From contig JABAAB010000112.1 in NCBI GenBank assembly GCA_014238945.1, positions 1 to 53,551 of the forward strand: a DNA stretch of 53,551 nucleotides. Direction: 5' to 3'. Source of the stretch: Lysobacterales bacterium (GTDB lineage: Bacteria; Pseudomonadota; Gammaproteobacteria; Xanthomonadales; SZUA-36). Below are positions 1,582-46,013 of this stretch, piece by piece (position 1 is the stretch's first letter; each line of letters starts with the position of its first letter). The position numbers and the translations under genes are program-made. Under the pieces are notes generated by a model that saw only the letters and a program-made list of their open reading frames with translations, did not search any database and was not told where the DNA came from.

Positions 1582-2781
1582 CTAACCCCCAACCTTCAAA
1601 ACCGCCGTCATCGAGGTATCCCCCGCAGCACAACCCTGGAACAACCCATAACCACCACCCCGTATCGCCAGTTCCTCGATCATTTCGATCATCGCACGCA
1701 TACCCGTGGGTCCCTGTGGGTGGCCCCAGATCAGGGAGCTGCCGTAGTTGTTCATCGACATCAGGTCCGCGCCGGTCTCCTTTGCGAAAATGATGTCGTT
1801 GACCGCGAAGGGGTTGTGGGACTTAATGGCTGTGCAATCTTTGATGCCAATACCGGCGCGTTCCAGTGCCTGCCTGGCGGCCGGTATGGTGGCGGCCGGC
1901 ATATAACTTTTTTCTTCCCGGGCCTGTCCGAAGGAAACCACTTCTATGCTGATGGCGGGGTCGGAGGACAGTTCTTTGGCCTTGTCCCTGGTGGTGACCA
2001 CCATGCCTGCCGCACCATCGGCGGGGTGGGTCTGGCCACCGAAGGTGATGGTCCCGCCTTCCTTGACAGTTCTCAGCTTGGCCAGTCCTTCTGCAGTGGA
2101 AGGAAATATACCCTCGTCGCCATCCATCGTGGCCACGGTCTTTCTGAAGCGTGGGTCGGGTACATCAAAGGGCAGGGTCATAAAGCGTTTCAGGAAGGCC
2201 GAGTCATTGGCCAGTGCATCACGGTATTGTTCCAGACGCCGCAATACGACCTCGTGTTGCTGTTCTGTGGTTACATCCCACTTGCTGGCACAGTTTTCCG
2301 CGGTCTGGGTCATATCGGCCTTTGCATACGGGTCCCAGCCCATGTTGTCGGGTACCCAGTCTTCGTGGGCCCCGATCCCGCCCGGTGCACCGGGGCGCGG
2401 ATAGAACAGATGCGGGCCATTGGATAAACGGTCGGTGGTGACTGCCAGTACACATTCGGCCGAGCCGGTCTCGACTTCCTGGGCTGCGACATTCAGTACC
2501 CTTGCGCTGGTCGCACAGGCCTGGCTGATGGTCGGTCCGCCGACACCGGTGGCGCCGACCAGGCCGGTCAGCCAGGGCAGGCCGTAAAAGGAAAATTGCT
2601 GGGGTACGGTCATGCCCAGTACACCGGCATCAAAGACATCGGCGGAAATCTTGCGTGATTCCAGTGCCTGGCGAGTGAGGTGTGCCGCAAATTCAATGCT
2701 GGGAAGATGTTGCAGGCTGCCCTGCCAGCGTGCGAACGGACTACACCAGTAGGCACCGTAGGGTATAAAACTCGCCGTCAT
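1582..2781 (-). CDS. Thiolase family acyl-CoA acyltransferase
   Basis: This 399-residue protein has the complete thiolase catalytic set: nucleophile Cys89 in SQACATS, a His322 block (SHNPFAVND) where classical thiolases have NEAFA, His354 in WGHPQGPTG, and the second catalytic Cys384 in FQGCAAGD. The modified NEAFA block points towards the lipid-transfer/branched-acyl thiolase side of the family rather than bulk acetoacetyl-CoA thiolase. It is divergent from the catabolic operon at 2992 and shares its 210-bp control region, so it probably supplies the final CoA-dependent C-C cleavage of that pathway. The start at 2781 has a strong GAGGAG ribosome site. The substrate is unknown. Confidence 0.85.
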   Translation of the reverse strand: MTASFIPYGAYWCSPFARWQGSLQHLPSIEFAAHLTRQALESRKISADVFDAGVLGMTVPQQFSFYGLPWLTGLVGATGVGGPTISQACATSARVLNVAAQEVETGSAECVLAVTTDRLSNGPHLFYPRPGAPGGIGAHEDWVPDNMGWDPYAKADMTQTAENCASKWDVTTEQQHEVVLRRLEQYRDALANDSAFLKRFMTLPFDVPDPRFRKTVATMDGDEGIFPSTAEGLAKLRTVKEGGTITFGGQTHPADGAAGMVVTTRDKAKELSSDPAISIEVVSFGQAREEKSYMPAATIPAARQALERAGIGIKDCTAIKSHNPFAVNDIIFAKETGADLMSMNNYGSSLIWGHPQGPTGMRAMIEMIEELAIRGGGYGLFQGCAAGDTSMTAVLKVGG

Positions 2782-2816
2782 TTCTATCTCCTCAAACTTG
2801 CTTTCAAGGTAATAAT

Positions 2817-2847
2817 GGTATTATAGTACCTAAATACCGTTTATGAA
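2817..2847 (-). promoter_or_regulatory. Thiolase promoter overlapped by an inverted repeat operator
   Basis: On the minus strand a perfect TATAAT (2820-2825) lies 16 bp from TTCATA (2842-2847). An inverted repeat, GGTATT-N10-AATACC (2817-2838), covers the -10 box and most of the spacer, the position expected for a repressor. The obvious candidate is the Rrf2-family protein encoded at the end of the divergent operon; that link is inference. A convincing promoter for the plus-strand operon is not visible in 2848-2991. An FNR-like sequence with two mismatches (TTGAC-CGTC-ATCAG, 2921-2934) lies there and is weak evidence. Confidence 0.55.
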
Positions 2848-2991
2848 TAAACCAACCTGTCAGGAATCACCCGGAAGACTTCTAACACAGGCTTATTGCA
2901 TGACTCACCGAAGCATGTGATTGACCGTCATCAGGAATTTGCATCTTCCGTGTCATCCATAGACAGTTGATATTAACCTATTAGAAGATTA

Positions 2992-4590
2992 ATGGATTTC
3001 TCAGACTGGATCAGCCATCACGCTGAAACTACCCCGACCAGGCCGGCCATCATTTTTGAGGGTGGCAGTATCAGCTATGGGGAACTGGCTGCCTGGATTA
3101 ATACCTTTGTCCAGGTGCTGGGAGCCGGGCTGGGCATCAAGCCCGGTGACCGGGTTGCCTATCTTGGTCTGAACTCACCCGAATTTGTTGCCCTGCTGTT
3201 TGCCTGCGCCCGTGTCGGTGCCGTGGCATTGCCGTTGAACTGGCGACTGGCAGCGGCCGAACATGTGCAGATACTGCAACACGCCCAACCACTCGTATTG
3301 TTCGTGGAGGATGAGTTTAAACAGCAGGTTGATGGCGTGAGAGACCAGCTGGCTGTCGATGAGCTAATCTGCTTTGGTGAAGCGGGTGATGGCTGGCTGG
3401 GTTTTCAGCAACTCAAGCTTGCTGCTTTGCAAAAACCGGCGTTCCAGCGACCGGCGGATCTCAGCGAAGAGGACGGCCTGCTGTTGTGTTACACCTCGGG
3501 TACCACCGGTGTGCCCAAGGGTGCATTGCTGAGCAAGAATGCGTTGTACTACAACGCGCTGAATTCCACCCATATGCATGACATGGGCCCCGAGGATACG
3601 GTGCTGGCCATGTTGCCGATGTTCCATGTGGGTGGTATCAATGTACAGTCCATCCCGGCCTGGTTCAACGGTGCAACGGTGGTGTTGCTCAAGCGTTTTG
3701 AAGTTGACCTTTTTTACCGGTCCATTGCCCGCCATCCCGTCACGCTTACGGTCGCGGTACCAACGATGATGCTGGCCATCATGGCCGACCCGCGCTGGAC
3801 CGATACCCGTCCGGGCAGTCTGCGATCGATCACCACCGGTTCCACCATCGTACCGGCGAGCATGGTTTCTACCGTGTGTGATTGGGGTGTGCCGATGGTA
3901 CAGATCTATGGCTCGACCGAGACTTGCCCGATCGCGGCCTATACCCTTCCCGACCAGGCCCGTACCCATCCTGCATCAACCGGCAAAACGGCAATACACA
4001 GCGAGATCCGCTTGATCGATGAACAGGGACAGCCCGTGGATACCGGTCAGAAGGGCGAAATCCTGGTGCGTGGCCCGCATGTCATGAACGAATACTGGGG
4101 CGATGACGAGGCCACCCGTGAAGCATTTACCGGACGCTGGTTTCATACCGGTGATGTCGGGCATTTTGATGAGGAAGGATTTCTTTACGTCGATGGACGC
4201 ATCAAGGACATGATCATATCCGGTGGTGAGAACATCTACCCGGCGCTGGTCGAAAACGTCCTTTCCACCATGGACGGTATCAGGGAAATTGCGCTAGTGG
4301 GTCTGCCGGATGACTACTGGGGTGAGATCGCTGTTGCCGTCGTCGTGGTACGGGCCGGCAGCGAAATTGACGGTGGGCAGATACGGGATTTCTCCGAGGA
4401 CCGGATTTCTCATTACTCCCTGCCGCGAGAGATTTTCATCGTGGATGAACTACCAAAAAACAGCATGGGCAAAGTCCTCAAAGATGAGGTCTGCGAACTG
4501 GCAATGAATTTGCAGGTTCAACAGCGGGCTCAACAGCAGAAACATCAGCCAGAACAACAAGAACAACGGAAAGAACAGCGGGAAAATTAA
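2992..4590 (+). CDS. Acyl-CoA synthetase (AMP-forming), first gene of the catabolic operon
   Basis: This 532-residue enzyme of the ANL superfamily shows the phosphate-binding loop YTSGTTGVPKG (about 167-177), YGSTET (about 306), the hinge motif GRIKDMIISGGENIYP (about 402) and the catalytic lysine motif PKNSMGKV (about 487). It should convert a carboxylic acid, ATP and CoA to an acyl-CoA in the cytoplasm. Placed immediately before HyuA/HyuB, it may activate the acid that enzyme makes, as acetoacetate or benzoylacetate ligases do in acetone and acetophenone catabolism; the real substrate is unknown. The last 30 residues form an unusual Gln/Glu-rich low-complexity tail. Only 14 bp separate it from the next gene. 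Confidence 0.88.
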   Translation: MDFSDWISHHAETTPTRPAIIFEGGSISYGELAAWINTFVQVLGAGLGIKPGDRVAYLGLNSPEFVALLFACARVGAVALPLNWRLAAAEHVQILQHAQPLVLFVEDEFKQQVDGVRDQLAVDELICFGEAGDGWLGFQQLKLAALQKPAFQRPADLSEEDGLLLCYTSGTTGVPKGALLSKNALYYNALNSTHMHDMGPEDTVLAMLPMFHVGGINVQSIPAWFNGATVVLLKRFEVDLFYRSIARHPVTLTVAVPTMMLAIMADPRWTDTRPGSLRSITTGSTIVPASMVSTVCDWGVPMVQIYGSTETCPIAAYTLPDQARTHPASTGKTAIHSEIRLIDEQGQPVDTGQKGEILVRGPHVMNEYWGDDEATREAFTGRWFHTGDVGHFDEEGFLYVDGRIKDMIISGGENIYPALVENVLSTMDGIREIALVGLPDDYWGEIAVAVVVVRAGSEIDGGQIRDFSEDRISHYSLPREIFIVDELPKNSMGKVLKDEVCELAMNLQVQQRAQQQKHQPEQQEQRKEQREN

Positions 4591-4604
4591 CGGGAATAAC
4601 AACT

Positions 4605-6719
4605 ATGGGTTTGAAAATTGGCATTGATGTCGGCGGTACCTTCACCGATTTCCTGGTGGCCTGGGAAGACCGGGAACCGGAGATATTCAAGGTGTTGTCG
4701 ACCTCGGATAATCCATCGGTGGGGGTGATCAACGGATTGTCTGAAATTGCTGAAAAACAGCAGCCGTCGATGAACCTGAATACTTTCCTGTCCAGCGTGG
4801 AGACCATCGTGCACGGGACCACTGTAACCACCAATGCCACGTTGACCCGTAACGGTGCCAGATCCGGTCTGATCACCACCGAGGGTGTGCGTGATGCACT
4901 GGAAATGCGTCGTGGCATCCGTGAAGAGCAATACAACAACCGTTATACCAATGTCGAGCCACTGGTTTCGCGCTACCTCAGGGTGGGTGTAAAGGGACGG
5001 TTGCGCCGCGATGGCGCCGAGGTCGAGGCACTCAGCCTGGCCGATGTGGAAAAGGCCATCGAACTGTTTAAAGAGGAGGGGGTTGAGGCAGTATCAATCT
5101 GCTTCATGAACGCCTTTGCCAACGCGCAACATGAACATGCTGCTGCCGAACTGGTGCGGGAGAAAATGCCCGCTGCCTACCTGACGGTATCGACTGACCT
5201 GTTGCCGTCGATTCGTTTTTATCCTCGGGTCAGCACCACCGTGCTGAACTCCTATATCGGACCGATATTGAATGATTACCTTGAACAACTGACCGGGCGT
5301 CTCAGCGACAACGGATTCAACGGCCTGTTGCTGATCATGCAGTCCAACGGCGGCGTGATGACACCGGAGGTCGCGCGCAAGACTGCTGCTTTGACCCTGC
5401 TGTCCGGTCCAGCCGCTGGACCCGGTGCCGGACTGGTCTATGCCAAGGCGCACGGGCAGGACAACTGCATCGTCGTCGACATGGGTGGCACCAGCTTCGA
5501 GGCCGCATTGGTCACCGGCAGCCCGGTACTGGTCAATGAGGGCTTGATCGACCGTCACCGCATCGCCCTGCCGATGCTGGCCATCCACACCATCGGTGCC
5601 GGTGGTGGCTCGATCGGCTGGATCGATGAGGGTGGTCTGCTGCGTATGGGTCCACAGAGTGCAGGTGCCGTACCGGGACCTGCAAGCTACGGACAGGGTG
5701 GCCGACTGCCGGCCTGTACCGATGCCAACCTGGTGTTGGGATTCCTGAACCCGGATTTCTTTGCCGGTGGCACCATGAAACTGGATATTGAAGCTGCACG
5801 TGCAGCCATCAAGGAACACATCGCCGACCCGATGGGTATGGATGTTGAGACCGCCGCCGCCGGTATGTACCGGGTCACCTGCAATAACATGGCACAGGGT
5901 GTACGCGAGGTGACCATCAAGCGTGGTTTTGACCCGCGTGAATTCCCGATGGTGGTGGCCGGTGGTGCCGGTCCGATCCATTCCTGCATGATCTGCGAGG
6001 AACTGCAGATCCCGTTCCAGATCGTACCGCGTGAGTCCTCCATCCTGTGTGCCGTGGGTATGCTGATGGGTGACCTGAAACACGATTTCGTGCGTACCTT
6101 CTTTGCGCGTCTCGACAACATTGACTGGCCCGCCTTGCAGGGCCTGGTCACCAGCATGGTCGACGAGGGTGGCGCACTGCTGAGCGAGGAGAGTATTCCG
6201 GCTGAACGCCAGCGCTTCCAGGTCAAACTGGATTGCCGCTATCAGAAGCAATACCACGAGGTCTCCGTGGTGGTGGAGCGTGAATGGATTGACCATGCCG
6301 ATACCGCTGCCGTACTGGCGGCCTTCCACGCAGAACACAACAGGTTGTATGGCTATTCGCTGGAAGACCAGGACGTGCCGGTGGATCTGATCAACGTTCG
6401 TCTTCAGGCGGTTGGCGTAACCGAAAAGCCTGATTTCCGCGAACAGGTATATGCCGGGGCCGATGCTTCTGCAGCGCTCAAGGGTGAACGCGACATGTAC
6501 ATATTCTCTGAAAAGGCTTTCAAACCGGTACCGGTGTACGACGGTCATGCGATGCGCTTTGGCAACCGGGTAAATGGCCCGGCCATGATCGAACAGGTCA
6601 CCACCGCCATCCTGGTCAGTGACAACTACGATTGCGTGGTGGATAAATTCGGTTCGTTCGCCGTGTTTGAGAAGGGTCGTGAAGAACTGGTTAGTTCCGT
6701 ACTAAAGGAGGCTGAATGA
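4605..6719 (+). CDS. HyuA-type subunit (hydantoinase A / acetone carboxylase beta superfamily)
   Basis: This 704-residue protein opens with GIDVGGTFTDF, the ASKHA-type ATP phosphate loop of Hydantoinase_A/oxoprolinase proteins. A second phosphate motif, VVDMGGTSFEAAL, follows at about 290, then GAGGGSIGWID and the family signature MGPQSAGAVPGPASYGQGG. In known members this subunit phosphorylates the substrate (N-methylhydantoin, 5-oxoproline, caprolactam, bicarbonate or a ketone enolate) and works with a HyuB partner, which is the next gene. Length matches HyuA and the acetone carboxylase beta subunit. The stop overlaps the start of HyuB by 4 bp, implying an equimolar complex. The sequence alone does not settle whether it is a lactamase or a carboxylase; neighbours favour an acyl-CoA-producing route. 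Confidence 0.85.
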   Translation: MGLKIGIDVGGTFTDFLVAWEDREPEIFKVLSTSDNPSVGVINGLSEIAEKQQPSMNLNTFLSSVETIVHGTTVTTNATLTRNGARSGLITTEGVRDALEMRRGIREEQYNNRYTNVEPLVSRYLRVGVKGRLRRDGAEVEALSLADVEKAIELFKEEGVEAVSICFMNAFANAQHEHAAAELVREKMPAAYLTVSTDLLPSIRFYPRVSTTVLNSYIGPILNDYLEQLTGRLSDNGFNGLLLIMQSNGGVMTPEVARKTAALTLLSGPAAGPGAGLVYAKAHGQDNCIVVDMGGTSFEAALVTGSPVLVNEGLIDRHRIALPMLAIHTIGAGGGSIGWIDEGGLLRMGPQSAGAVPGPASYGQGGRLPACTDANLVLGFLNPDFFAGGTMKLDIEAARAAIKEHIADPMGMDVETAAAGMYRVTCNNMAQGVREVTIKRGFDPREFPMVVAGGAGPIHSCMICEELQIPFQIVPRESSILCAVGMLMGDLKHDFVRTFFARLDNIDWPALQGLVTSMVDEGGALLSEESIPAERQRFQVKLDCRYQKQYHEVSVVVEREWIDHADTAAVLAAFHAEHNRLYGYSLEDQDVPVDLINVRLQAVGVTEKPDFREQVYAGADASAALKGERDMYIFSEKAFKPVPVYDGHAMRFGNRVNGPAMIEQVTTAILVSDNYDCVVDKFGSFAVFEKGREELVSSVLKEAE

Positions 6720-8404
6720 TGAGCCAGATTGATCCCATCCTGCTGTCCGTCTACGCCCGCACTTTCAAGTCGATCACCGACGAGATGAGCATGTCGGTGG
6801 AGCAGACCGCACGCTCACCGATCTTGTGTGAGGCCAAGGACTTTGTCACCGGTCTGTACGATGCCAAAGGCCATATGCTGGAGCAGAAAGAAAACCTGCC
6901 GATCCTGGCCTTTTCGCTGGCCCCGGTGTGCAAGTACCTGGTCGAATACTTCGGTGATGATATCCATGAAGGTGACGTGATCTTCCACAACGATGTGTTT
7001 TCCATGGGTAACCAGAACAACGATGTGGCGGTCTACAAGCCGATCTTCTTCAAGGGTGAACTGGTGGCCTGGTCCGCGGTCAAGGGACACCAGGCCGACA
7101 TTGGCGGCAACGTTGCGGGTGGCTACAACCCGCGTGCCACCGAGGTCTGGCAGGAGGCATTGCGTATTCCACCGGTCAAGGTGTTTGACCGGGGCGTGAT
7201 CCGCAAGGATGTGTGGGATCTGATCTTTGCCAATATCCGTCTCGAAATCGTTCAACATGATATGCGCGCCCAGATCGGGGCCTGCACGGTGGGTGAAAGG
7301 CGTCTGCTGGACCTGTTGAACAAGTATGGACTCGAGAGTTTTGAGAGCCACAAACTGGCCCTGTTTGACGCCACCCGCAAGATGATGGAAGCCGAGATCG
7401 CGACCATCCCCGAGGGCTCCTACAGCGGCGAGGGCTATGTCTACTTTGATGGCCACAACGAGGGCACCAAGTTCACCATCCGGGTGACGGTGACGGTGAA
7501 GGACAAGCACATCTGCTTTGATTACTCCGACACCGATGCCCAGACCAATGGGTTTGTAAATGGTACCTACACCTCAAGTGCATCGGCCTCCATCCTGACC
7601 TTTTTGCAGATGGTCAACCCGGATATCCCCCACAACGAGGGTATGGTCGGACCGATCGAGATGATCATCCCGGAAGGCACGATACTGAATGCGTCCTATC
7701 CAAAGGCGACCACCTTTGGCAATCACCTGTGTCCACCCAATGCCGATGCCATCATCCGCGCACTGGCACCGGTGATTCCGGACCGGGTCACGGCCGGCTG
7801 GAACAACCTGCTGGCCTCACTGACCACGGGTCTGGACGAGGACAAGGGCGAGGATTACGTAGATATCGGTTTCATGGGGCTCAAGGGTGGTTCCGGTGCC
7901 ATGAACGGCACCGACGGTTATGACCACATCGGTATGATCGACGCCTCCGGTGGCATCCTCGATCAGGACTACGAAATGTTCGAGCAACAGACACCGCATT
8001 TGCTTAAAAAACACGAATACCTGGCCGACTCCGCCGGTGCCGGTCAATGGCGGGGCGGGCTCGGGGTTGAGACTGAGTTCATCATCGGCTCCGAGGACAC
8101 CCAGTTGGTGACCTTCGGTGACGGTGATTTTGAACCGGCCTTCGGTCTGTTCGGTGGTGGTGACGGAACCCTCAATATCATCAGCCTGACTTACCCTGAT
8201 GGCAGCGAGGTAGTACCCAATAACAAGGACCTGATCATCGGTGTGCCACGGGGCACTATTTACTACCAGGCGGCGGGTGGTGGCGGTGGATACGGCGACC
8301 CGGCAAACCGGGATCGTGAAACACTGACCCGTGAAGTCAGAAACGGGGTAATCAGTTCAAAGGCCGCGAAAGATCTGTATGGCTTTGAAGGAGGCGAAAG
8401 CTGA
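6716..8404 (+). CDS. HyuB-type catalytic subunit (hydantoinase B / acetone carboxylase alpha superfamily)
   Basis: This 562-residue protein has the HyuB layout: an N-terminal SMSVEQTARSPIL block, a central KGHQADIGG (His125, Asp128), the EALRIPPVKV signature and a C-terminal GGGGGYGDP end. The first half of the usual metal motif (HxxD in most members) reads QNND here (Gln100 to Asp103), so one expected histidine ligand is replaced while His125 is kept. Length fits N-methylhydantoinase/caprolactamase B subunits; acetone carboxylase alpha is about 200 residues longer and has a small gamma subunit, which is missing here. An AAAGGAGG ribosome site precedes two possible ATGs (6716 and 6719). It forms the catalytic complex with HyuA. 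Confidence 0.85.
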   Translation: MMSQIDPILLSVYARTFKSITDEMSMSVEQTARSPILCEAKDFVTGLYDAKGHMLEQKENLPILAFSLAPVCKYLVEYFGDDIHEGDVIFHNDVFSMGNQNNDVAVYKPIFFKGELVAWSAVKGHQADIGGNVAGGYNPRATEVWQEALRIPPVKVFDRGVIRKDVWDLIFANIRLEIVQHDMRAQIGACTVGERRLLDLLNKYGLESFESHKLALFDATRKMMEAEIATIPEGSYSGEGYVYFDGHNEGTKFTIRVTVTVKDKHICFDYSDTDAQTNGFVNGTYTSSASASILTFLQMVNPDIPHNEGMVGPIEMIIPEGTILNASYPKATTFGNHLCPPNADAIIRALAPVIPDRVTAGWNNLLASLTTGLDEDKGEDYVDIGFMGLKGGSGAMNGTDGYDHIGMIDASGGILDQDYEMFEQQTPHLLKKHEYLADSAGAGQWRGGLGVETEFIIGSEDTQLVTFGDGDFEPAFGLFGGGDGTLNIISLTYPDGSEVVPNNKDLIIGVPRGTIYYQAAGGGGGYGDPANRDRETLTREVRNGVISSKAAKDLYGFEGGES

Positions 8405-9534
8405 TGGATTTTGAACTGAGCCAGGAGCAGCAAACAGTCCGCGATACCTTCGCACGTTTCTGTGACGAAAGAATCAATCCACAGGCCGAGGCCATTGATG
8501 AGGCCCATGAATTTCCCTGGGAACTGTTTCGCGAACTGGGTGAGCTGGGTTTTTTTGGCATGCGTTACCCGGAGGACGCCGGTGGCAGCGCCATGGACCT
8601 CAATTCATTCTGCCTGGCCCTGACCGAGATCGCACGTGGTTCCATGTCGCTGGCCGGTGCCGTGGCCATGCAATCACTGATGGGTACCAAGTTCCTGCAC
8701 ATGCTGGGTAATGAAGATATCCGTAATCGTTTGTTCGCACCGGCACTGGCCGGTGAGAAGGTCGGCGCAATTTGCATGACCGAGCCCAATGCCGGTTCCG
8801 ACCTGGCGGGAATTTCAACTTCGGCTACCAAGGTCGAAGGCGGTTACCGGTTGAACGGACAGAAAATGTGGGTGACTTCAGCCCCTGTGGCAGATTTTTT
8901 CACAGTATTTGCAAAAGCCGGTGAAGCCGGTGGACTGACCATCTTCCTGGTGGAGAAGGATTTCGAAGGTCTGGCCGTCGGTCGAGCCATCGAGAAAATG
9001 GGGGTGCGTGCCCTACCGACATCAGAACTGGCAATGAACGACTGTTTTGTGCCCGACAGCCACTGTCTGTGCGCCGAGGGCGAGGGCAGCAGGCACCTGC
9101 GCAAATTGCTCGCCGAGATTCGCATCATCACCGCTGCGATGGCGGTGGGTGGCGGTCGCGGTGCCTTGAACGAGGCAGTGCGTTATGCCGCTGAACGCAA
9201 GCAGTTCGGCAAACCGATCAACCGTTTCCAGGCCATACAGTTAAAACTGGCCGAAATGGCCACCGAACTCGAAGCCGCCGAACAACTGCTGCACTACGCG
9301 GCCTGGTTGAAACAAAATGACCGCCCCTGTCACCAGCAGTCGGCGATGGCCAAACTGTTCGCCTCCGAAGCCGCCGTCAAGGCCTGTGACCAGGCAGCAC
9401 GGGTACTGGCCTCCTATGGTTTTGCCATGGAGTACCCGGTGCAACGTCACCTGCGGGATATCCGTTTCACACTGATCGGTGGCGGCACCAGTGAAATTCT
9501 CAAACTCATTATCGCCAAGGAATTGTCTGCATGA
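8404..9534 (+). CDS. Acyl-CoA dehydrogenase
   Basis: This 376-residue flavoprotein has the ACAD signatures CMTEPNAGSDLAG (about 120) and the C-terminal block VRYAAERKQFGKPI. It should oxidise an acyl-CoA to the 2-enoyl-CoA using FAD and pass electrons to ETF. The usual catalytic base sits in a YEGT motif near the C-terminus; here that block reads GGGTSEI (359-365), so the Glu is Gly. Enzymes for branched substrates such as isovaleryl-CoA dehydrogenase place the base elsewhere (helix G), and a Glu in LAEIRIITAAM may serve, but this is uncertain. The ATG overlaps the HyuB stop by one base. The substrate is probably a branched or substituted acyl-CoA of the operon's pathway. Confidence 0.87.
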   Translation: MDFELSQEQQTVRDTFARFCDERINPQAEAIDEAHEFPWELFRELGELGFFGMRYPEDAGGSAMDLNSFCLALTEIARGSMSLAGAVAMQSLMGTKFLHMLGNEDIRNRLFAPALAGEKVGAICMTEPNAGSDLAGISTSATKVEGGYRLNGQKMWVTSAPVADFFTVFAKAGEAGGLTIFLVEKDFEGLAVGRAIEKMGVRALPTSELAMNDCFVPDSHCLCAEGEGSRHLRKLLAEIRIITAAMAVGGGRGALNEAVRYAAERKQFGKPINRFQAIQLKLAEMATELEAAEQLLHYAAWLKQNDRPCHQQSAMAKLFASEAAVKACDQAARVLASYGFAMEYPVQRHLRDIRFTLIGGGTSEILKLIIAKELSA

Positions 9535-9926
9535 ACCAACGCAGTACCAGGGTGCTTATCGCCAAGCCCGGCCTGGACGGGCATGACCGGGGGGCAAAAA
9601 TTGTCGCCCATGCTTTGATCGATGCCGGTTTTGACGTCATCTACACCGGTCTGCGCCAGGCACCCGAAGCCGTGGTCCAGGCAGCACTGGATGGGCAGGT
9701 CGATGTCATCGGTTTGTCCTCCATGGCCGGTTCACATGTGCCGTATTGCCAGCAGTTGAAACCCCTGCTGGAGGAAAAAGGACTGGGTGACAAGCTGTGG
9801 ATTATCGGTGGCAGCATCCCGGCCGGGGACCAGCAGGCCCTGTTGGATATCGGTCTGGACGGGGTGTTTCCGGCCGGCTCAAAACTCGAATCAATAGTTG
9901 ATTTCATCAATGAGAGATGTCAATGA
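9531..9926 (+). CDS. B12-binding small subunit of an acyl-CoA mutase
   Basis: This 131-residue protein is a free-standing cobalamin-binding domain. It carries the DxHxxG motif as DGHDRG (Asp16, His18, Gly21), whose histidine ligates cobalt in the base-off/His-on mode. It also has the later SSMAGSH and IGGSIPAGD loops that hold the nucleotide tail. Separate small subunits of this size occur in 2-hydroxyisobutyryl-CoA mutase (HcmB), isobutyryl-CoA mutase (IcmB) and archaeal methylmalonyl-CoA mutase. It overlaps the dehydrogenase upstream (ATGA) and the large subunit downstream, so the mutase is made as a coupled pair. Confidence 0.92.
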   Translation: MNQRSTRVLIAKPGLDGHDRGAKIVAHALIDAGFDVIYTGLRQAPEAVVQAALDGQVDVIGLSSMAGSHVPYCQQLKPLLEEKGLGDKLWIIGGSIPAGDQQALLDIGLDGVFPAGSKLESIVDFINERCQ

Positions 9927-11575
9927 CAACACCAGTTAATAAAGCACCTGAAATGGTCACGGGCGCTTCCAGAAAGCGAATGGACACCGCTCAACCGGTG
10001 TTCAATGAATCCGGTATCGAGATCAGGAAAACCTATACGGCCGAAGACCTTGAATCTTCCGGTGGCGTGGACATGGTCGGTCTGCCCGGTGAGTACCCGT
10101 TTACCCGCGGTATCCACCGCGAGATGTACCGCAAGCGGCCCTGGACCATGCGTCAGTACACCGGTTTTGGCAATCCTTCAGAAACCAACAAGCGTTTCAA
10201 GTTCCTGATCGAAAATGGCCAGACCGGTCTGAATGTGGCCTTTGACCTGCCCTCACAGATCGGGATTGATTCGGATGATGACATGGCCACCGGTGAGATC
10301 GGCCGGGTGGGTATGGCGGTGGACTCGTTGCGAGATTTCGAGGTGGCTTTCGATGGCATCGACCTGGACAAAATCACCGTCTCACTGACCGTCAATGGTT
10401 CGGCGGCCATCATGATTGCCATGTATCTGGCCATGGCTGAAAAACGCGGCTATGACATCACCAAACTGCGTGGCACGGCCCAGAACGACATCCTGAAGGA
10501 ATTTATCGGCCGCGGTACCTGGATCTTCCCGGTCGAGCCATCGATCAAACTGGTGGCCGATACCATCGAGTACTGTGCCCACAACGCACCCAAGTACAGT
10601 CCGGTCAGCGTCTGTGGCTACCACATCCGCGAATCGGGTGCCGATCCGGCCCAGGAGATGGCCTATGGTTTCTGTATTGCAAAGGCCTATACCGACCTGG
10701 TGCTGGCACGCGGTCTGGATGTCGATGAATTCGCCTCACGGCTGTCATTCAATTTCAATATTTACGGCAACATCTTCGAACAGGTAGCCAAGTTCCGGGC
10801 CGGTCGCGGTCTGTGGGCAAAGATCATCTCCGAAGGATACGGGGCGACCAACCCACGCTCGATGGTACTGCGCATGATCGCCGGTGGGGGTGGCTCTGGT
10901 CTGACCAAGGAGCAACCCGAGGTCAATATCGTCCGGGGTGCCTACTATGCATTGATCAGCGCCCTGTCCGGTGCCCAGACCATGGCGTTGTGCTGTTTTG
11001 ACGAGGCCTACACGATACCCAGCGTGGACGCACAGCGTCTGTCACTGCGGACCATGCAGGTACTGATCGAGGAAATGGGTCTGTGTGACACGGTCGACCC
11101 GTTGGCCGGTTCCTATTACGTCGAGACCCTGACCAACCAGATGCGTGAGCGCATGGAAGAGGTCATGGCAGAGGTCGAAGAGCAGGGCGGTATCGTGGCG
11201 ATGGTGGCCGATGGATCGATCCAGGCCAAGGTGTCTGAACAGGCTTACCAGATGTTACAGGATATCGAATCCGGTGAATTCCCCAAGGTGGGTATCAACT
11301 GCTACCAGATGGATGAAAAAGAGCCCGAGGTCGAATTACACCCCTATGCTGAAGATGACGCGCGCCGCCAGGTGGAACGCATCGTTCAGTTACGCGAGGA
11401 ACGTGATGGTGCCGCGGTGGAAGCCACGCTGGCGAAGCTGGTGACCGACGCGCAGGCGGGTGTCAATGTAATGCCGGCCATCATGGCCGCGGTCAAGGCC
11501 TATGCCACCGTCGGCGAGATGACCGATGCACTGGTCTCGGTCTATGGCCGTTACCAGGAACCGGTCCGGTTTTGA
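9923..11575 (+). CDS. Acyl-CoA mutase large subunit (methylmalonyl-CoA mutase family) with an atypical pocket
   Basis: This 550-residue TIM-barrel subunit aligns throughout with methylmalonyl-CoA mutase (MCM) and HcmA. Numbering from this start, the MCM substrate residues Tyr89, Arg207 and His244 are matched by Tyr79 (MRQYTGFG), Arg197 (FIGRGTW) and His234 (CGYHIRE). HCM has Ile and Gln, and ICM Phe and Gln, at the first two. Elsewhere the pocket departs from all of them: the MCM loop THSQTSG is MIAGGGGSG (about 318-326) and the HTQSLHTN segment is GAQTMALCC (about 350-358). Tyr/Arg suggests a carboxylated acyl-CoA, but not methylmalonyl-CoA itself. ATG 9923 is chosen over 9917 because GAGAG (9912-9916) lies 6 nt ahead; its ATGA overlap couples it to the small subunit. 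Confidence 0.9.
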   Translation: MTTPVNKAPEMVTGASRKRMDTAQPVFNESGIEIRKTYTAEDLESSGGVDMVGLPGEYPFTRGIHREMYRKRPWTMRQYTGFGNPSETNKRFKFLIENGQTGLNVAFDLPSQIGIDSDDDMATGEIGRVGMAVDSLRDFEVAFDGIDLDKITVSLTVNGSAAIMIAMYLAMAEKRGYDITKLRGTAQNDILKEFIGRGTWIFPVEPSIKLVADTIEYCAHNAPKYSPVSVCGYHIRESGADPAQEMAYGFCIAKAYTDLVLARGLDVDEFASRLSFNFNIYGNIFEQVAKFRAGRGLWAKIISEGYGATNPRSMVLRMIAGGGGSGLTKEQPEVNIVRGAYYALISALSGAQTMALCCFDEAYTIPSVDAQRLSLRTMQVLIEEMGLCDTVDPLAGSYYVETLTNQMRERMEEVMAEVEEQGGIVAMVADGSIQAKVSEQAYQMLQDIESGEFPKVGINCYQMDEKEPEVELHPYAEDDARRQVERIVQLREERDGAAVEATLAKLVTDAQAGVNVMPAIMAAVKAYATVGEMTDALVSVYGRYQEPVRF

Positions 11576-11590
11576 AGGAGTTTGGACAGT

Positions 11591-12454
11591 ATGAATATTG
11601 AGAGCTACAACGCGCCGGATTCGATTGCCGAGGCCGCGCAATTACTCCAGGGTGGCAACGCCACGGTCGTGGCCGGAGGCACCGACCTGACGCCGCAGAC
11701 TGAAAGCGGTGTCCGGCAATTTGCTGCGACACTGGTCAACATCCAGCGTATCGATGAGATGCGTGGTATCGGTGTAATGAATGGGCGTATACGCATTGGT
11801 GGATTGACCACGGTCACGGACATACTGGAAAGCAAATTGCTGGCTGATGAGGCACCCGTACTGGTTGATGCGGCGGACCGTTTCGCCAGTTCTCAAATCC
11901 GCAACGCCTCTTCATTGGCAGGCAACCTGTGCAATGCATCACCCGCCGGGGACATGTGTATCCCGTTATTGGTACTGGATGCAGAGGTGGAACTGGCCTG
12001 TTGGGATGGTGAATCAATTTCCACCCGCAAAGTGTCCCTGGAGCGGTTTTTTACCGGCCCCGGTAAATCGGTCATGGTAGCGGGGGAACTGATGACGGCG
12101 ATTGAATTTCCCCGGTGCGCAAACCGGTTTGTGGCCGCCTTCCTGAAGTCTGGACCCCGCCCGGCCCTGGAAATCTCCACGGTTTCCATGGGGCTGTCGT
12201 GCAGCCTGACTGATGGCGTCATCAGCAATGTCCGTGTGGCCATCGGTGCCGTGGCACCCACTCCATTACGGGCAAAACGGACCGAGGCCGCACTGGAAGG
12301 AAAAGTTTTAAACGAAGCCACCATTCAACTGGCTGTAGAAACAGCTGGGGAAGAGGTGTCACCGATCGATGATGTGCGTGCCTCGGCCTGGTACCGAAAA
12401 CACCTCACCGGGGTATACATCAGGAGGCTTTTGAATCATGTCAATGGAAGTTGA
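11591..12454 (+). CDS. Molybdenum hydroxylase FAD subunit (CoxM/XdhB-like)
   Basis: About 287 residues, matching the FAD-binding subunit of xanthine-dehydrogenase-family enzymes. The flavin motifs are AGGTDLTPQ (near residue 28) and IRNASSLAGNLCNASPAGD (about 100), the equivalent of the IRNxGTxGG block. There is no extra 4Fe-4S loop of the kind found in 4-hydroxybenzoyl-CoA reductase, so it is of the plain CoxM type. It passes electrons from the 2Fe-2S subunit to an acceptor. ATG 11591 is chosen; AAGGAG (11574-11579) precedes it by 11 nt, and a TTG at 11582 is too close to that site. It overlaps the next gene by 17 bp. Confidence 0.9.
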   Translation: MNIESYNAPDSIAEAAQLLQGGNATVVAGGTDLTPQTESGVRQFAATLVNIQRIDEMRGIGVMNGRIRIGGLTTVTDILESKLLADEAPVLVDAADRFASSQIRNASSLAGNLCNASPAGDMCIPLLVLDAEVELACWDGESISTRKVSLERFFTGPGKSVMVAGELMTAIEFPRCANRFVAAFLKSGPRPALEISTVSMGLSCSLTDGVISNVRVAIGAVAPTPLRAKRTEAALEGKVLNEATIQLAVETAGEEVSPIDDVRASAWYRKHLTGVYIRRLLNHVNGS

Positions 12455-12941
12455 AATCAATTTTAGTCTGAACGGTATCGCCACCCAGGCCCATGTACCA
12501 CCGACCATGACCACGCTGGCGATGTTACGGGAAAAATTTGACCTGACCGGTGGCAAGCTGGCCTGTGGCGAGGGCGAATGCGGTGCCTGTACGGTGCTTA
12601 TCGATGATCGCACCATCAATGCATGCCTGATGTTTGCTGTTGATTGTGACGGGCGCGAGATGCAGACCATCGAGGGTCTGGCCAGTGCCAGTGGACTGGC
12701 GGTCATGCAGCAGGCGTTTGTAGACCACGGTGCAATCCAGTGCGGTTACTGTATGCCTGGCATGATCATGCAGGCCAAATACCTGGTCGAGCAGAATTCC
12801 GGACAGCAAGCCCTGACACGTGACGATATCGCCCGTGGACTGGAAGGTAATGTCTGTCGTTGCAGCGGTTATACCAAGGTGGTCGATGCGGTCGCAGCAG
12901 TCGTGCTTGAGGAAAATCAGACCGGGGAGCGTGCATCATGA
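12438..12941 (+). CDS. Molybdenum hydroxylase 2Fe-2S subunit (CoxS/XdhC-like small subunit)
   Basis: This 167-residue protein has the two [2Fe-2S] domains of the family. The plant-type ferredoxin ligands are Cys43, Cys48, Cys51 and Cys63 (CGEGECGAC and a later Cys). The second, helical cluster uses Cys102, Cys105 (QCGYCMPGM) and Cys140, Cys142 (CRCSGY). It relays electrons from the molybdenum centre to the FAD subunit. GGAGG sits 10 nt upstream of the ATG, inside the end of the FAD subunit gene. Its stop overlaps the ATG of the large subunit, so the three subunits are co-translated. Confidence 0.95.
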   Translation: MSMEVEINFSLNGIATQAHVPPTMTTLAMLREKFDLTGGKLACGEGECGACTVLIDDRTINACLMFAVDCDGREMQTIEGLASASGLAVMQQAFVDHGAIQCGYCMPGMIMQAKYLVEQNSGQQALTRDDIARGLEGNVCRCSGYTKVVDAVAAVVLEENQTGERAS

Positions 12942-15241
12942 GTGCTGTTATTGAAAGAAAGACCATTATCGGTAAACGTGTGCCCAAACCTGATGCACCC
13001 GACAAGGCCACCGGTCGTACCCGATACATCAACGACATGGTGCTGCCGCGTATGCTGATCGGCAAAATCCTGCATACCGACCGGGTGCATGCCAGAATTC
13101 TCAGCATCGACACAACTGCTGCAATGGCCCTGCCGGGTGTGCATGCGGTTCTTACCGGTGAGGATTCACCCGATCTTCGTTTTGGACCCACACGTGACAA
13201 CTTTCCGTTAAAGAGCGGAAAAGTCCGTTGCATCCGCGACGAGGTCGCGGCGGTGGCGGCAGAGACCGAAGAAATCGCACAGCAGGCCATTGATTTGATC
13301 AAGGTGGAATACGAGGATCTGCCACCGGTATTTACTCCTACTGAAGCCATGCGCGATGGTGCACCGGTAGTACACGATGACCACCCGGACAATCGCAGCC
13401 TGGGCTACGAATTCTCACATGGGGATATTGCACGGGCCGAGGCCGAATCGGATATCGTCGTTGAGCACCAGTTCGAAGTGCCCTACGTGACCCACTGTTG
13501 TATGGGTCCGAGTTGTGCGATCGCAGATTTTGACACCACCGGCAAGCTGACCATCTGGTCACAGACCCAGTACCCCTATAACTACAAGATGGATTTGGCC
13601 CCGGCCCTGGGGATACATCCGGGTGACATCCGGGTGATCCAGCCACCGGTCGGTGGCGCCTTCGGTTCCAAACTGGATGTCTACCCATTCGAACCCATCT
13701 GCGCATTGCTGGCGAAAGCCACACGCAGGCCGGTCAAACTGACCTTTTCACGTGAGGAGGAATTCATCAACTCACCTACCCGCCAGCCGGTTGAGTTCAG
13801 GATCAAGAGCGGTGTGAACAGGGATGGAACATTGACCTTTCGCAGCGTGGATGCGTTGTTGAACAACGGTGCCTACACCTCGTGGGGACCGACCACACCG
13901 GTGATCCAGATGCGTACCTTTACCGGTCACTACCGGTTGCCGGCGGTTGAATACCGGGCCCAGGCGTATTACACCAACATGGTCTATGCCGGGTCATTCC
14001 GTGGGTATGGCAATGTGCAGGCGACCTTCGTTACCGCTTCGGTAATGGATATGCTGGCCGAAGAGGTTGGCATGGACCCGATTGCCTTTCGTCTGAAAAA
14101 CGCCCAGAACTCCGGTGAAGTGACACCGCAGGGGTCGATACTGGACGATTGCAGACTGGGTGAATGTATCGAACTGGTAGCGGAAAAGACCGATTTTCTG
14201 AACAAGCACAAGGCCTACACCGATCAGCGCAAGCAGACCGCTCGCATCCAGCGTGGCATTGGTATCGCCACCACCATACACAACGCCGGTGGTGCCAAGA
14301 TCCACAAGAGTGACGGTTGTGGCACGATGCTGAAACTTGACGACTACGCCCGCGCCACGCTGATCACCGGAGCATCCGAGATCGGACAGGGTATCGACGC
14401 GGTGCTGTGTCAGATCGTTATGGAGGAACTGGGTATCCCGATCCGCGACATAACCATCGTCAATGACGATACCGCACTGGGTCCATGGGATGTGGGCGTA
14501 CATGCCAGCAGGACCACGTTCATAGCCGGTAATTCGGCACTGCGCGCGGCTCGTGCCGCCCGTAAACAGGTACTCGATGCGGCAGCCAAACAGTCGAATG
14601 TCACTGCAGACCAACTGGATCTCAGGGAAGGGCACGTGGTGCAGGCCGACAACGGTGTGCCGGTGATCCGTCTCGACAAACTGTTGCGTCAGATGCACTT
14701 TGGCGATGAGCCCGAACTGGTGATGGTGACCGATTATTACGAACCGAACAGCGTCCCGGAGGACAAGAATCACTTCGGTAACCTGTCCTCATCCTGGGCC
14801 CACGGAGCCTATGTCGCCGAGGTCGAAGTGGATACTGAGACCGGTGAGGTGCGGGTGCTCAAGATGACCGTCGTTCAGGACGTGGGCCGGGTCATCAACC
14901 GTCTCGGTATTGAAGGTCAGATCGAGGGTGGTATCTCGGTGTCACTGGGTTACGCACTCAGTGAACAATTACAAATAAGTGAAGGCAGGGTAATGAACCC
15001 AAATTTCCGGGACTACAAGGTCATGACCGCTCCGGAAACACCTGAGATTGAGTTGCACTTTATCGAGAGCGACTGCAAGGAAGGCCCGCTGGGCGCCAAG
15101 GGCATCGCCGAGATCCCCGCCATCGTCCCGGCACCCGCCATTGCCAACGCGGTATATAACGCCATTGGAATCCGTTTCCACGCACCGCCACTGACACCTG
15201 AAAAGGTCGCCCGGGCCCTGCACGGTGCACCACAGCAATGA
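12938..15241 (+). CDS. Molybdenum hydroxylase large (molybdopterin) subunit
   Basis: This 767-residue subunit of the xanthine dehydrogenase/aldehyde oxidase family shows the molybdopterin-binding motifs [10 protein letters not shown] (about 235), GSFRGYG (about 350), [10 protein letters not shown] (about 480) and the C-terminal [12 protein letters not shown], whose Glu725 is the catalytic base of the family. It lacks the active-loop cysteine motif VAYRCSFR of CO dehydrogenase, so it is not a CO oxidiser. Known relatives hydroxylate N-heterocycles or aldehydes, or reduce 4-hydroxybenzoyl-CoA. In this operon it may hydroxylate a ring or an activated carbon of the substrate. No dedicated maturation factor (XdhC/CoxI-like) lies nearby. 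Both ends overlap neighbours by 4 bp. Confidence 0.92.
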
Positions 15242-16443
15242 AACCACGCACCGTGCTGAGCCTGGAGCAAGCGTTGTCCATGCCCTATGCGACGCTACGC
15301 TTTGCCCAGCTTGGCTGGCGTGTAATCCGGATTGAGGCCACGCCATTTGGTGAGCGTCTGCCGGGTGATCCCAATCGTTATATCGGCACCGAGGTGGTAG
15401 ATGATGATCGCAACAGTTATTTCATCGCACCCAACGTGGGCAAGGAGACTATCGCACTGGATCTGAAGGACCCTCGTGGCCAGGGATTGTTGTTGAAGAT
15501 CATCAGGGAACTCAAGGTTGATATCTTCTGCTGCAATACCCTGCCGGGGCGCTATGAAACCCTCGGCATCGATTACGAAACCCTGCAAACTGCCAATCCG
15601 GGGCTGATCTGGGCGGGTATTTCAGCCATGGGTCCGGAGTATCCCAACTTTCCGGGTTACGACCCAGCATTACAGGCCATGTCCGGATTCATGGAACTGA
15701 CCGGCAGGGAAGACGGCTCACCCACCCTGTCCGGTATCCCGTTGATTGATCTGAAAGCGGGTGATGAAGTCTATGCCGGTGTCTGCCTGGCATTGGCAGA
15801 GCAGGCGGAATCCGGTGAGGGAAGCGCCATTCATGTTTCCATGTTACAGGCCGCGGCTTCGTGGCTGATCACCACGCTGCCACTGGTGGATTTTGGCTGT
15901 GATGACTCGGAGATTACCCGTTGTGGTAACGAACACCGCAAGTTTATCCCGACCAATGCCTATCCCACCACGGACGGCTTTGTCTATGTTGCCATTGGTA
16001 ACGACCTGCAATGGCAACGCTTTACCCAACTGGAGAAATTCAAATCCGTGGCCAACGAGGTCCGTCGGACCAACAAGGGCAGACAGGCTCAGCGGCAAAG
16101 CTGTTACCAGGACATTGCGGCGATCTCGGCCGGATTTACCAAGGCAGAACTGGTGGAAGATTTCCTGGCGGCGACCATTCCACACGCGGTGATCAATGAC
16201 ATACGCCAGGTACGTGAATTGCAAGCCCTGGGTGACAGGCTCACCACCACACGGACACCGGATGGAAAAATGATCCACATGCAACCCATGGCTGTCGACC
16301 GGGAACAGGCACACACGGAATTATCATTTCCGGGAAAGTACGGGCAGCACACGGCCGATATTCTTGCCGAGGCGGGTCTGAATACTGATGAAATTGCTAT
16401 GCTTGCCCAGGCAGGTGTCATTGCAACGATGCTCGAATCATGA
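15238..16443 (+). CDS. CaiB/BaiF class III CoA transferase
   Basis: This 401-residue protein belongs to the CaiB/BaiF family. Asp171 in [14 protein letters not shown] matches the aspartate of formyl-CoA transferase that forms the acyl-anhydride intermediate. N-terminal [15 protein letters not shown] and [16 protein letters not shown] segments are also typical of the family. It moves CoA between carboxylic acids without ATP. In this operon it could recycle CoA from a late intermediate such as succinyl-CoA onto the incoming acid, giving a second activation route beside the ligase at 2992; that is inference. The ATG overlaps the molybdenum subunit stop and its own stop overlaps the next gene. 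Confidence 0.9.
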
Positions 16444-16904
16444 ACAGTTCAGTCCTCAACGAAGCATCAATAGCTGTTCAAATCCGCAGGGCGGCACAGT
16501 CCGATCTGGCAGCAATCATGGCCTTTGATGAGCGCAGCAACAAGGACGCAAACCCGGAATACTGGCAAGCGATGTTCAGACGCTACGGTGATGATCAGGG
16601 CAAGCAGTTGTTTCTGGTTTGCGAACATGGTCCGGAGATTGTCGGCTTTATCATAGGTGAAGTGCGTGACTGGGAATTTGGTTCCAGTCCTTGTGGCTGG
16701 GTATTCGCACTGGGTGTACGACCGGACATCAGGCTTGGGGGTGTCGCAACCCGGATGTACCGCGAAATGTGCGACTTTTTCCGGCGCGCGGGTGTCAACA
16801 AGGTGCGCGCGATGGTCGCGCGACAGGACAATGATTTCCATTCATTTTTCCGCAGCCAGGGCATGATGGCGGGCCCATATGTGCAGTTGGAAAAAGACCT
16901 GTGA
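16440..16904 (+). CDS. GNAT family N-acetyltransferase
   Basis: This 154-residue GNAT-fold protein shows the acetyl-CoA binding motif A region as [21 protein letters not shown] (a variant of RxxGxA) followed by a beta strand with [21 protein letters not shown], the end of motif B. The substrate is unknown. Its coupling to the operon by an ATGA overlap, just before the regulator, makes a protein-acetylating control role possible, for example on the acyl-CoA synthetase as in Pat systems, or a metabolic acyltransfer. There is no direct evidence for either. Confidence 0.8.
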
Positions 16905-17320
16905 AATTACAGCAATCCACACTGCTGGGTCTGTATGCGACACTGGAACTGGCCAGGGCCGACGGTGGGCAACGCTCGGCGGCGGAAATCGCTGAGAAGT
17001 TCAACGTATCCCTGAACCACCTCGCCAAGGTGTTACGCACATTGGTCAGGGCCGGTTTATTGCAGGCCGTGCGCGGGGTTGGCGGAGGATATCGCTTTCT
17101 GGGCAATGCCAAGCGCACCACCCTGATGGATGTGATCGAGTTGTTTGAGCCGGTGTCGATTGAGGGTTTCGAAAATCATGCCAGAGCACATCCCACCGAT
17201 GTGGAATCCGGTCTTGCAATCGCCCTGGTGGAAATCAGCGAGATGATGCAGGCAACCCTGCGCTCCATTACCATCCGCACCATGCTCAAGATGATGAACC
17301 CCGACAGCACGACGGCATAA
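16901..17320 (+). CDS. Rrf2 family transcriptional regulator without cysteines
   Basis: This 139-residue protein has the Rrf2 winged helix: an N-terminal helix, a recognition region SAAEIAEKFNVSLNHLAKVL, and the wing LLQAVRGVGGGYRF, the equivalent of the RGxxGGxxL block. IscR, NsrR and RirA bind Fe-S clusters through three cysteines after this wing; this protein contains no cysteine at all, so it cannot be a cluster sensor of that kind and resembles CymR-type members, which respond to a protein or metabolite. The GTG start overlaps the previous stop. It is the last gene of the operon and the natural candidate for binding the inverted repeat at 2817-2838. Confidence 0.85.
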   Translation: MKLQQSTLLGLYATLELARADGGQRSAAEIAEKFNVSLNHLAKVLRTLVRAGLLQAVRGVGGGYRFLGNAKRTTLMDVIELFEPVSIEGFENHARAHPTDVESGLAIALVEISEMMQATLRSITIRTMLKMMNPDSTTA

Positions 17321-46008: not shown

Positions 46009-46013
46009 CACCC

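Follow-up and report, generated by a model that had tools for sequence, protein, structure and literature searches.

A probable iaa operon for auxin degradation in an uncultured Lysobacterales bacterium, with a candidate GNAT–Rrf2 module for its control

The thirteen genes at positions 1582–17320 of a 53,551-nucleotide stretch from a Lysobacterales bacterium (GenBank assembly GCA_014238945.1, contig JABAAB010000112.1, positions 1 to 53,551; the whole stretch is called the window below) very probably form an iaa operon for the degradation of indole-3-acetate (auxin), a described pathway that is now found in an uncultured bacterium. The genome of the window comprises 4.85 Mb in 126 contigs and is 98% complete. 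The eleven enzyme genes of the published iaa pathway are all present, in the order A-B-C-E-F-G-H-I-J-K-L, with A inverted, and they make up the complete set of a coenzyme A (CoA) ligase, a three-subunit molybdenum hydroxylase, a HyuAB pair, a CaiB-type transferase, a two-subunit B12 mutase, an acyl-CoA dehydrogenase and a thiolase; the letters I, J and K were assigned to the three hydroxylase subunits on the basis of gene order. An initial annotation of the window had listed the same thirteen genes, and all the open reading frames were found at its coordinates with the domains that it named; it was also right in proposing a single catabolic operon and a lactam or N-heterocycle as the class of substrate, here an indole that would be opened as a lactam. 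Its view that no described pathway matches was mistaken, as the iaa locus of Aromatoleum holds these genes and has been characterised, and an operon once thought unmatched can be given the name of a known pathway. The features are as follows.

1582–2781, minus strand: iaaA, thiolase (Pfam Thiolase_N/C)
2817–2830: predicted operator GGTATTATAGTACC, palindrome GGTAYTATARTACC (from spacer alignment, pattern scans and a promoter scan)
2992–4590, plus strand: iaaB, AMP-forming arylacetate/indoleacetate-CoA ligase (PF00501/PF13193)
4605–6719, plus strand: iaaC, HyuA-type subunit of an ATP-dependent lactamase, 704 aa (PF05378/PF01968/PF19278)
6716–8404, plus strand: iaaE, HyuB-type subunit, 562 aa (PF02538)
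8404–9534, plus strand: iaaF, decarboxylating (aminobenzyl)malonyl-CoA dehydrogenase (acyl-CoA dehydrogenase domains, GGG motif)
9531–9926, plus strand: iaaG, B12-binding mutase subunit (PF02310; TIGR00640 above cut-off)
9917–11575, plus strand: iaaH, acyl-CoA mutase large subunit (PF01642; TIGR00641 above cut-off)
11582–12454, plus strand: molybdenum hydroxylase FAD subunit, iaaI by inferred letter (PF00941, PF03450)
12438–12941, plus strand: molybdenum hydroxylase subunit with two [2Fe-2S] clusters, iaaJ by inferred letter (PF00111, PF01799)
12938–15241, plus strand: molybdenum hydroxylase large subunit, iaaK by inferred letter (PF01315, PF02738, PF20256)
15238–16443, plus strand: iaaL, class III (phenylsuccinyl-type) CoA-transferase (PF02515)
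16440–16904, plus strand: BadL-like GNAT (PF00583)
16901–17320, plus strand: BadM-like Rrf2 regulator with a GTG start (PF02082; TIGR00738 above cut-off)
18003–19238, plus strand: kynureninase, outside the operon (TIGR01814 above cut-off)

The twelve plus-strand genes are separated by eleven junctions of 14, -4, -1, -4, -10, 6, -17, -4, -4, -4 and -4 bp, confirming the tight packing reported in the initial annotation, though with all eleven and not ten of them under 20 bp; iaaA diverges from iaaB across a spacer of 210 bp (2782–2991). While the genes, their order, their motifs and their conservation are observations of this study, the reactions are carried over from the work on Aromatoleum. 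There, IaaB is reported as the CoA ligase, IaaL as a phenylsuccinyl-CoA transferase, IaaGH as a benzylmalonyl-CoA mutase and IaaF as a decarboxylating dehydrogenase (PMC8360864), and the locus, named iaaABCDEFGHIJKLMPQR, leads to 2-aminobenzoyl-CoA as its end product (PMC9613470). By analogy, IaaB would convert indoleacetate to indoleacetyl-CoA, the molybdenum hydroxylase would oxidise the indole C2 to give a lactam, and IaaCE (HyuAB) would open the lactam at the expense of ATP, yielding (2-aminophenyl)succinyl-CoA; IaaL would transfer CoA from one carboxyl to the other, IaaGH, the B12 mutase, would form (2-aminobenzyl)malonyl-CoA, and IaaF would oxidise and decarboxylate it to 2-aminocinnamoyl-CoA. 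After hydration and dehydrogenation, by enzymes encoded outside the operon, thiolysis by IaaA would release acetyl-CoA and 2-aminobenzoyl-CoA.

Motifs and subunit sizes of the individual enzymes are consistent with these assignments. IaaF carries GGG at residues 359–361 instead of YEG, the replacement reported to mark IaaF (PMC8360864). With duplicates, truncated copies, rows shorter than 300 aa and the window protein itself removed, GGG was present in all 60 distinct relatives with at least 60% identity and in all three with 40–60% identity (63 of 63 in total), and in none of the four acyl-CoA dehydrogenases under 40%. IaaG has the motif DGHDRG at residue 16. The initial annotation had likened the mutase to HcmAB, the 2-hydroxyisobutyryl-CoA mutase, whose large and small B12 mutase subunits are separate, as in the window, and which provides the best match in the PDB (4r3u); when IaaH was aligned to human methylmalonyl-CoA mutase and HcmA, however, it was found to keep the Tyr (RQYTGFG) and Arg (IGRGTWIFP) of the dicarboxyl-CoA mutases where HcmA has Ile and Gln. 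These residues read the free carboxylate of the substrate. On the two active-site positions, a mutase of the HcmAB type is rejected and the earlier label has to be dropped.

The HyuAB pair is, judged from its sequence, the two-subunit lactam-hydrolase form and not a ketone carboxylase. The sizes of HyuA and HyuB, 704 and 562 aa, resemble the 707 and 564 aa of IaaC and IaaE of A. aromaticum, reported as a hydantoinase-like hydrolase (PMC8453981), and both phosphate motifs that the same source gives for HyuA-type proteins are present (DVGGTFTD at 8 and DMGGT at 292). Among NCBIfam models, HyuA scored 673 bits with caprolactamase alpha vs. 340 with ApcC, the corresponding figures for HyuB being 395 and 111. 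Caprolactamase CapAB and the ATP-dependent hydantoinases, which share the two-subunit layout, are thus the closest models for the two proteins, but neither score reaches its curated cut-off of 1000 bits and a different lactam would be expected. The initial annotation had used HyuAB to draw a link to ketones, through carboxylases of the acetone or acetophenone type. HyuA does have weaker matches to acetophenone carboxylase models and their structures, but the scores of both subunits favour caprolactamase, two-gene hydAB clusters are described as hydrolases (PMC5214803), and no gene for the gamma subunit (acxC/apcB), by which that source tells acetone and acetophenone carboxylases, lies beside HyuA (flanked by the ligase and HyuB) or HyuB (flanked by HyuA and the dehydrogenase). 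Both the layout of the subunits and their model scores led us to reject an acetone or acetophenone carboxylase, and a ketone pathway is, in our view, very improbable.

A more serious question concerns the exact substrate. The ligase sets the substrate, and its identity to five near relatives is only 61–65%, making it the most diverged enzyme of the set (67–70% for the FAD subunit and 73–92% for the other enzymes); its best NCBIfam model stays just below the cut-off, and the best 25 of its 108 NCBIfam matches are all below theirs. This weighs against indole-3-acetate itself and would fit a pathway in which the same enzymes perform the same chemistry on a different indole or aryl acid, such as a substituted indoleacetate. 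The downstream enzymes must nevertheless fit aminophenyl intermediates, and the set and its order are kept in many proteobacterial loci, and we consider another substrate improbable. For the thiolase, too, the best 25 of 39 NCBIfam matches are all below cut-off; its counterpart, 82–83% identical, lies opposite iaaB in G003, G005, G014, G006 and G007. These genomes hold the loci L006, L003, L055, L002 and L004/L005, respectively; the operon-bearing near relatives were assembled from metagenomes, and their records bear the title Gammaproteobacteria or Oceanospirillales bacterium.

The nine genes from HyuA to CaiB (C-E-F-G-H-I-J-K-L) keep their order in 35 of the 68 fetched loci, a recurrence beyond what chance would produce. 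One of these is a duplicate, as the 89,988-bp contig holding L004 and L005 (JAJFLA010000003.1, G007:C13) repeats itself in inverted orientation from its centre, with 100% identity over the 2,800 bases tested on each side; we take such a perfect contig palindrome to be an assembly artefact and count its two iaa copies as one, giving 34 of 67. The other 33 loci include 27 stretches shorter than 19 kb. Among the six full-length exceptions, L036, L050, L051 and L062 are without the molybdenum hydroxylase, L052 has only a distant match to the large subunit upstream, and L041 has no iaaL nearby. Four alphaproteobacterial loci (L048, L050, L051 and L053) combine the IaaF–mutase–IaaL module with a different HyuAB (37–38% and 29–31% identity) and no match to the molybdenum hydroxylase; the divergent HyuAB suggests related pathways for other substrates. 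The whole order from A to L, with A co-directional, is seen in L173, L174, L175, L176 and L179, five of the six iaa loci read in the taxonomic order of Burkholderiales bacterium BURK1, the sixth (L177) beginning at F at the contig end.

Closer to the window the distribution is patchy: IaaF was found in six of 61 genomes, namely in the window's own, in four of the nine others of the genus, in one of the 27 others of the family and in none of the 24 others of the order. Across 399 genomes, with at most four candidates scored in each, the count is at least six. The enzyme set is nevertheless present in many records of Gamma- and Alphaproteobacteria and Burkholderiales, several of which look marine, judged from isolate names alone, and in marine settings auxin is reported to act in signalling between algae and bacteria (PMC10805672). 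In all five gammaproteobacterial relatives inspected (L077:3226–3651(-), L078, L079, L081 and L082), iaaL is followed by a gene of glyoxalase fold, confirmed as PF13669 in the one that was scanned, and no match to it was found in the window. This is the fold of methylmalonyl-CoA epimerase, and with IaaF reported to be enantiospecific, the gene may encode a benzylmalonyl- or phenylsuccinyl-CoA epimerase.

The characterised iaa loci of Aromatoleum aromaticum EbN1 and Azoarcus (Aromatoleum) evansii resemble the window in their enzyme classes, the GGG of IaaF, the sizes of HyuAB and the A–L order of letters, although our gene-order comparison was made against the loci of the fetched relatives rather than the EbN1 sequence itself. 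The EbN1 locus was not found among 64 + 74 genomes searched with the iaaF forward primer at up to one mismatch; the published iaaF primers were also compared with six loci. The forward primer gave two one-mismatch matches, in the iaaF of a relative (L179) and in L172, which is not an iaa locus. The start of iaaF in L179 agrees with the A. aromaticum primers at 21 of 22 forward and 18 of 22 reverse bases, and the latter fit identifies L179 as a relative and not as EbN1. In the window, as distinct from A. aromaticum, iaaA is inverted and there is no gene for a binding protein (iaaM type) within the operon. A. aromaticum has the regulators iaaQ and iaaR and a truncated, non-functional iaaD (PMC8360864), whereas the window operon ends in a GNAT–Rrf2 pair.

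By sequence, these last two genes are a pair of the BadL/BadM type. The GNAT gene overlaps both iaaL and the Rrf2 gene by 4 bp, and the two genes are adjacent in 11 of the 12 iaa genomes searched; the contig of G065 ends within the Rrf2 gene. The five gammaproteobacterial relatives have the pair away from iaaL, at up to ~7 kb or, in G006, on another contig. Within G583, the only match to the window GNAT at E ≤1e-15 is a gene at 3,686,891–3,687,352 with 52% identity (48% by BLAST), adjoining an Rrf2 gene that is 51% identical to that of the window. We take G583 to be the genome of Magnetospirillum magneticum AMB-1; the position is roughly where amb3392, the 3392nd of some 4,559 genes, would be expected, and the G583 protein is thus probably MmBadL; the GNAT is present in 15 of the 17 genomes of the Magnetospirillum group. 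The homologues of BadL described in PMC6191541 include amb3392 (MmBadL and RpBadL being 41% identical); they acetylate 2-, 3- and 4-aminobenzoate, and acetamidobenzoates lower the hold of BadM on the badDEFGAB promoter. In Rhodopseudomonas palustris, M. magneticum and Geobacter metallireducens, the genes for BadL and BadM are adjacent as in the window, but BadM controls benzoyl-CoA reductase genes, while the window pair sits in an iaa operon with its own aminobenzoyl product. The window Rrf2 has no Cys and is therefore unlikely to sense through an Fe-S cluster; Cys is likewise absent from the proteins of four of the five gammaproteobacterial relatives (that of G003 has one), and the proteins of Paramagnetospirillum caucaseum and AMB-1 have two each.

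A candidate site of action for the regulator lies in the spacer between iaaA and iaaB. An alignment of four such spacers (the window's own and those of G003, G005 and G014) contains one conserved block of ~29 bp, with a palindromic core and the element GGTATTATAGTAC(C/T), and the regions upstream of GNAT in G003, G005, G006, G007 and G014 share GGTACTATAATA(C/T), the reverse of the spacer element. The pattern GGTAYTATARTAY was found in all six iaa genomes of the family, the window's own included, and in none of ten relatives without iaaF, these being ten of the 55 IaaF-negative genomes; reversed, the pattern has two matches in the same 16 genomes. Counting palindromes and the duplicated contig once, there are 12 distinct sites, six in iaaA–iaaB spacers, five before GNAT and one unexplained (G014 C32), and the site at 2817–2830 is the only one in its genome. 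In all five genomes where GNAT and Rrf2 form a separate unit, the pattern precedes the pair. Relaxing the pattern to GGTAYN4RTACC gives sites upstream of GNAT in G065 and G579, yet some relatives have it within iaaE, and it occurs at other places too. It matched 32 times, against 7 and 3 matches of two controls, but we give this little weight, the pattern having been picked with the data already in view and the scanned loci overlapping.

Building on the analogy to BadL and BadM, we propose, with roughly even confidence, that the 2817–2830 palindrome is the site from which Rrf2 represses iaaA as well as the operon from iaaB to rrf2, and that GNAT makes the inducer by N-acetylating aminobenzoate released by the pathway. 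Without indoleacetate, Rrf2 would keep iaaA and the iaaB operon low; leakage or partial flux would lead to 2-aminobenzoyl-CoA and some free 2-aminobenzoate, which GNAT would acetylate, and the resulting acetamidobenzoate would release Rrf2. With the GNAT gene inside the operon, the proposed circuit would have positive feedback. That auxin catabolism in the family as a whole is switched on by 2-acetamidobenzoate, releasing Rrf2 from one palindrome that governs the catabolic genes together with the sensor pair, is a wider claim to which we give slightly less than an even chance.

Several observations weigh against this model. The predicted operator overlaps a TATAAT hexamer, similar to a -10 element, on the iaaA strand, and TATAAT also occurs in the GNAT upstream regions; the conservation may hence be partly that of a promoter. 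The same 13-mer, GGTAYTATARTAC, is present in nine of the 17 Magnetospirillum-group genomes (at G583 C1 2326995 and at sites in eight others), never beside the GNAT–Rrf2 pair, and no operator was found upstream of the badL-type gene or pair of AMB-1. The two annotated sites of the 13-mer lie between genes for a short-chain dehydrogenase/reductase and a tandem GNAT (L233) and by the gene for ribosomal protein L13 (L219); with such unrelated neighbours and no site at the pair, we do not accept the operator as proof of a BadM regulon in Magnetospirillum, and we claim the operator for the family of the window only. One iaa genome, G063, has no GNAT–Rrf2 pair, and in P. caucaseum, one Phaeospirillum and three Burkholderiales records the pair (45–53% identity for GNAT, 49–59% for Rrf2) is off the iaa contig. 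In P. caucaseum the pair lies among hydrogenase- and chemoreceptor-type genes, which give no sign of a link to aromatic catabolism; in G064 it is surrounded by genes for a molybdopterin oxidoreductase, a thioesterase and an AMP ligase, and the contig also carries PF06050 genes ~19 kb away.

The palindrome could, given its TATAAT and the occurrence of the 13-mer at unrelated places in the Magnetospirillum group, be nothing but conserved -10 promoter context to which Rrf2 does not bind. Repressor sites often overlap promoter elements such as TATAAT, however, and mere promoter context would have to explain the length of the conserved block, its palindromic core, the split between iaa genomes and other relatives, and a set of sites in which only one of 12 is without explanation; we regard it as unlikely. 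GNAT could also have another role, acetylating a lysine of IaaB in a control of the Pat type or detoxifying an arylamine, with Rrf2 sensing something else. Both kinds of function are mentioned for GNAT proteins in PMC6191541, and the effector of Rrf2 is here putative, but the adjacency of the two genes in nearly all iaa genomes searched and the likeness to the probable MmBadL, a reported aminobenzoate acetylase (PMC6191541), argue against it and make it a possible but rather doubtful explanation.

While the iaa pathway is already known, our limited check of the literature, made by title and the start of the abstract and with the 2012 and 2016 primary iaa papers outside it, found no GNAT–Rrf2 control module or pair tied to iaa genes. 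The set of GNAT, Rrf2 and operator offers a testable hypothesis for the induction of iaa and bears on a question that PMC6191541 leaves open: why a benzoate degrader controls its catabolic genes through an N-acetyltransferase. If true, our model would suggest a reason for the response of BadM to aminobenzoates in benzoate degraders, as such a device would suit pathways that, like iaa, produce aminobenzoyl-CoA.

The further fate of 2-aminobenzoyl-CoA may differ among the carriers of the operon. PF06050, covering subunits of benzoyl-CoA reductase and 2-hydroxyglutaryl-CoA dehydratase, has matches in all 11 other iaa genomes searched and none in the draft genome of the window, where the absence is weak evidence and the search did not extend to class II benzoyl-CoA reductase or anthranilate dioxygenase. 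With no gene found for a class I benzoyl-CoA reductase, 2-aminobenzoyl-CoA may be processed by a monooxygenase/reductase from the salicylyl-CoA 5-hydroxylase family (NF006101). A fusion protein of this family, 764 aa long and scoring 1265 bits (cut-off 1078), is encoded in the same genome, on a contig (C24) other than that of the iaa genes, and its putative role would be the next step; in P. caucaseum an NF006101 protein (1168 bits) is found on the iaa contig near iaaA (L168: iaaA at 1841–3052, NF006101 at 4887–7157). The 2-aminobenzoyl-CoA monooxygenase/reductase of Azoarcus evansii is, we assume, a member of the family, and the window operon may feed an oxygen-using step. The aerobic 2-aminobenzoyl-CoA pathway of A. 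evansii is described in PMC4539516. The kynureninase encoded 683 bp after the operon is another possible source of anthranilate; as no match to it was found in the 68 fetched iaa stretches, many of them short, its membership in the pathway is unsupported.

Elsewhere in the window, positions 899–1201 hold a gene for a HigB-type toxin of a toxin–antitoxin system (PF09907), and positions 19290–20315 one for an Fe-S protein with sub-threshold matches to the models of QueG and of reductive dehalogenase (118 bits, where 160 are required). A cluster for N2O reductase (nos) was considered for the NosD-like match at 41335–42720 and rejected, no other nos gene being found among the scanned neighbours. 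Finally, a gene for an AAA ATPase followed by one for a VWA_CoxE protein is located at 45154–47189; such pairs mature molybdenum hydroxylases of the XDH family.

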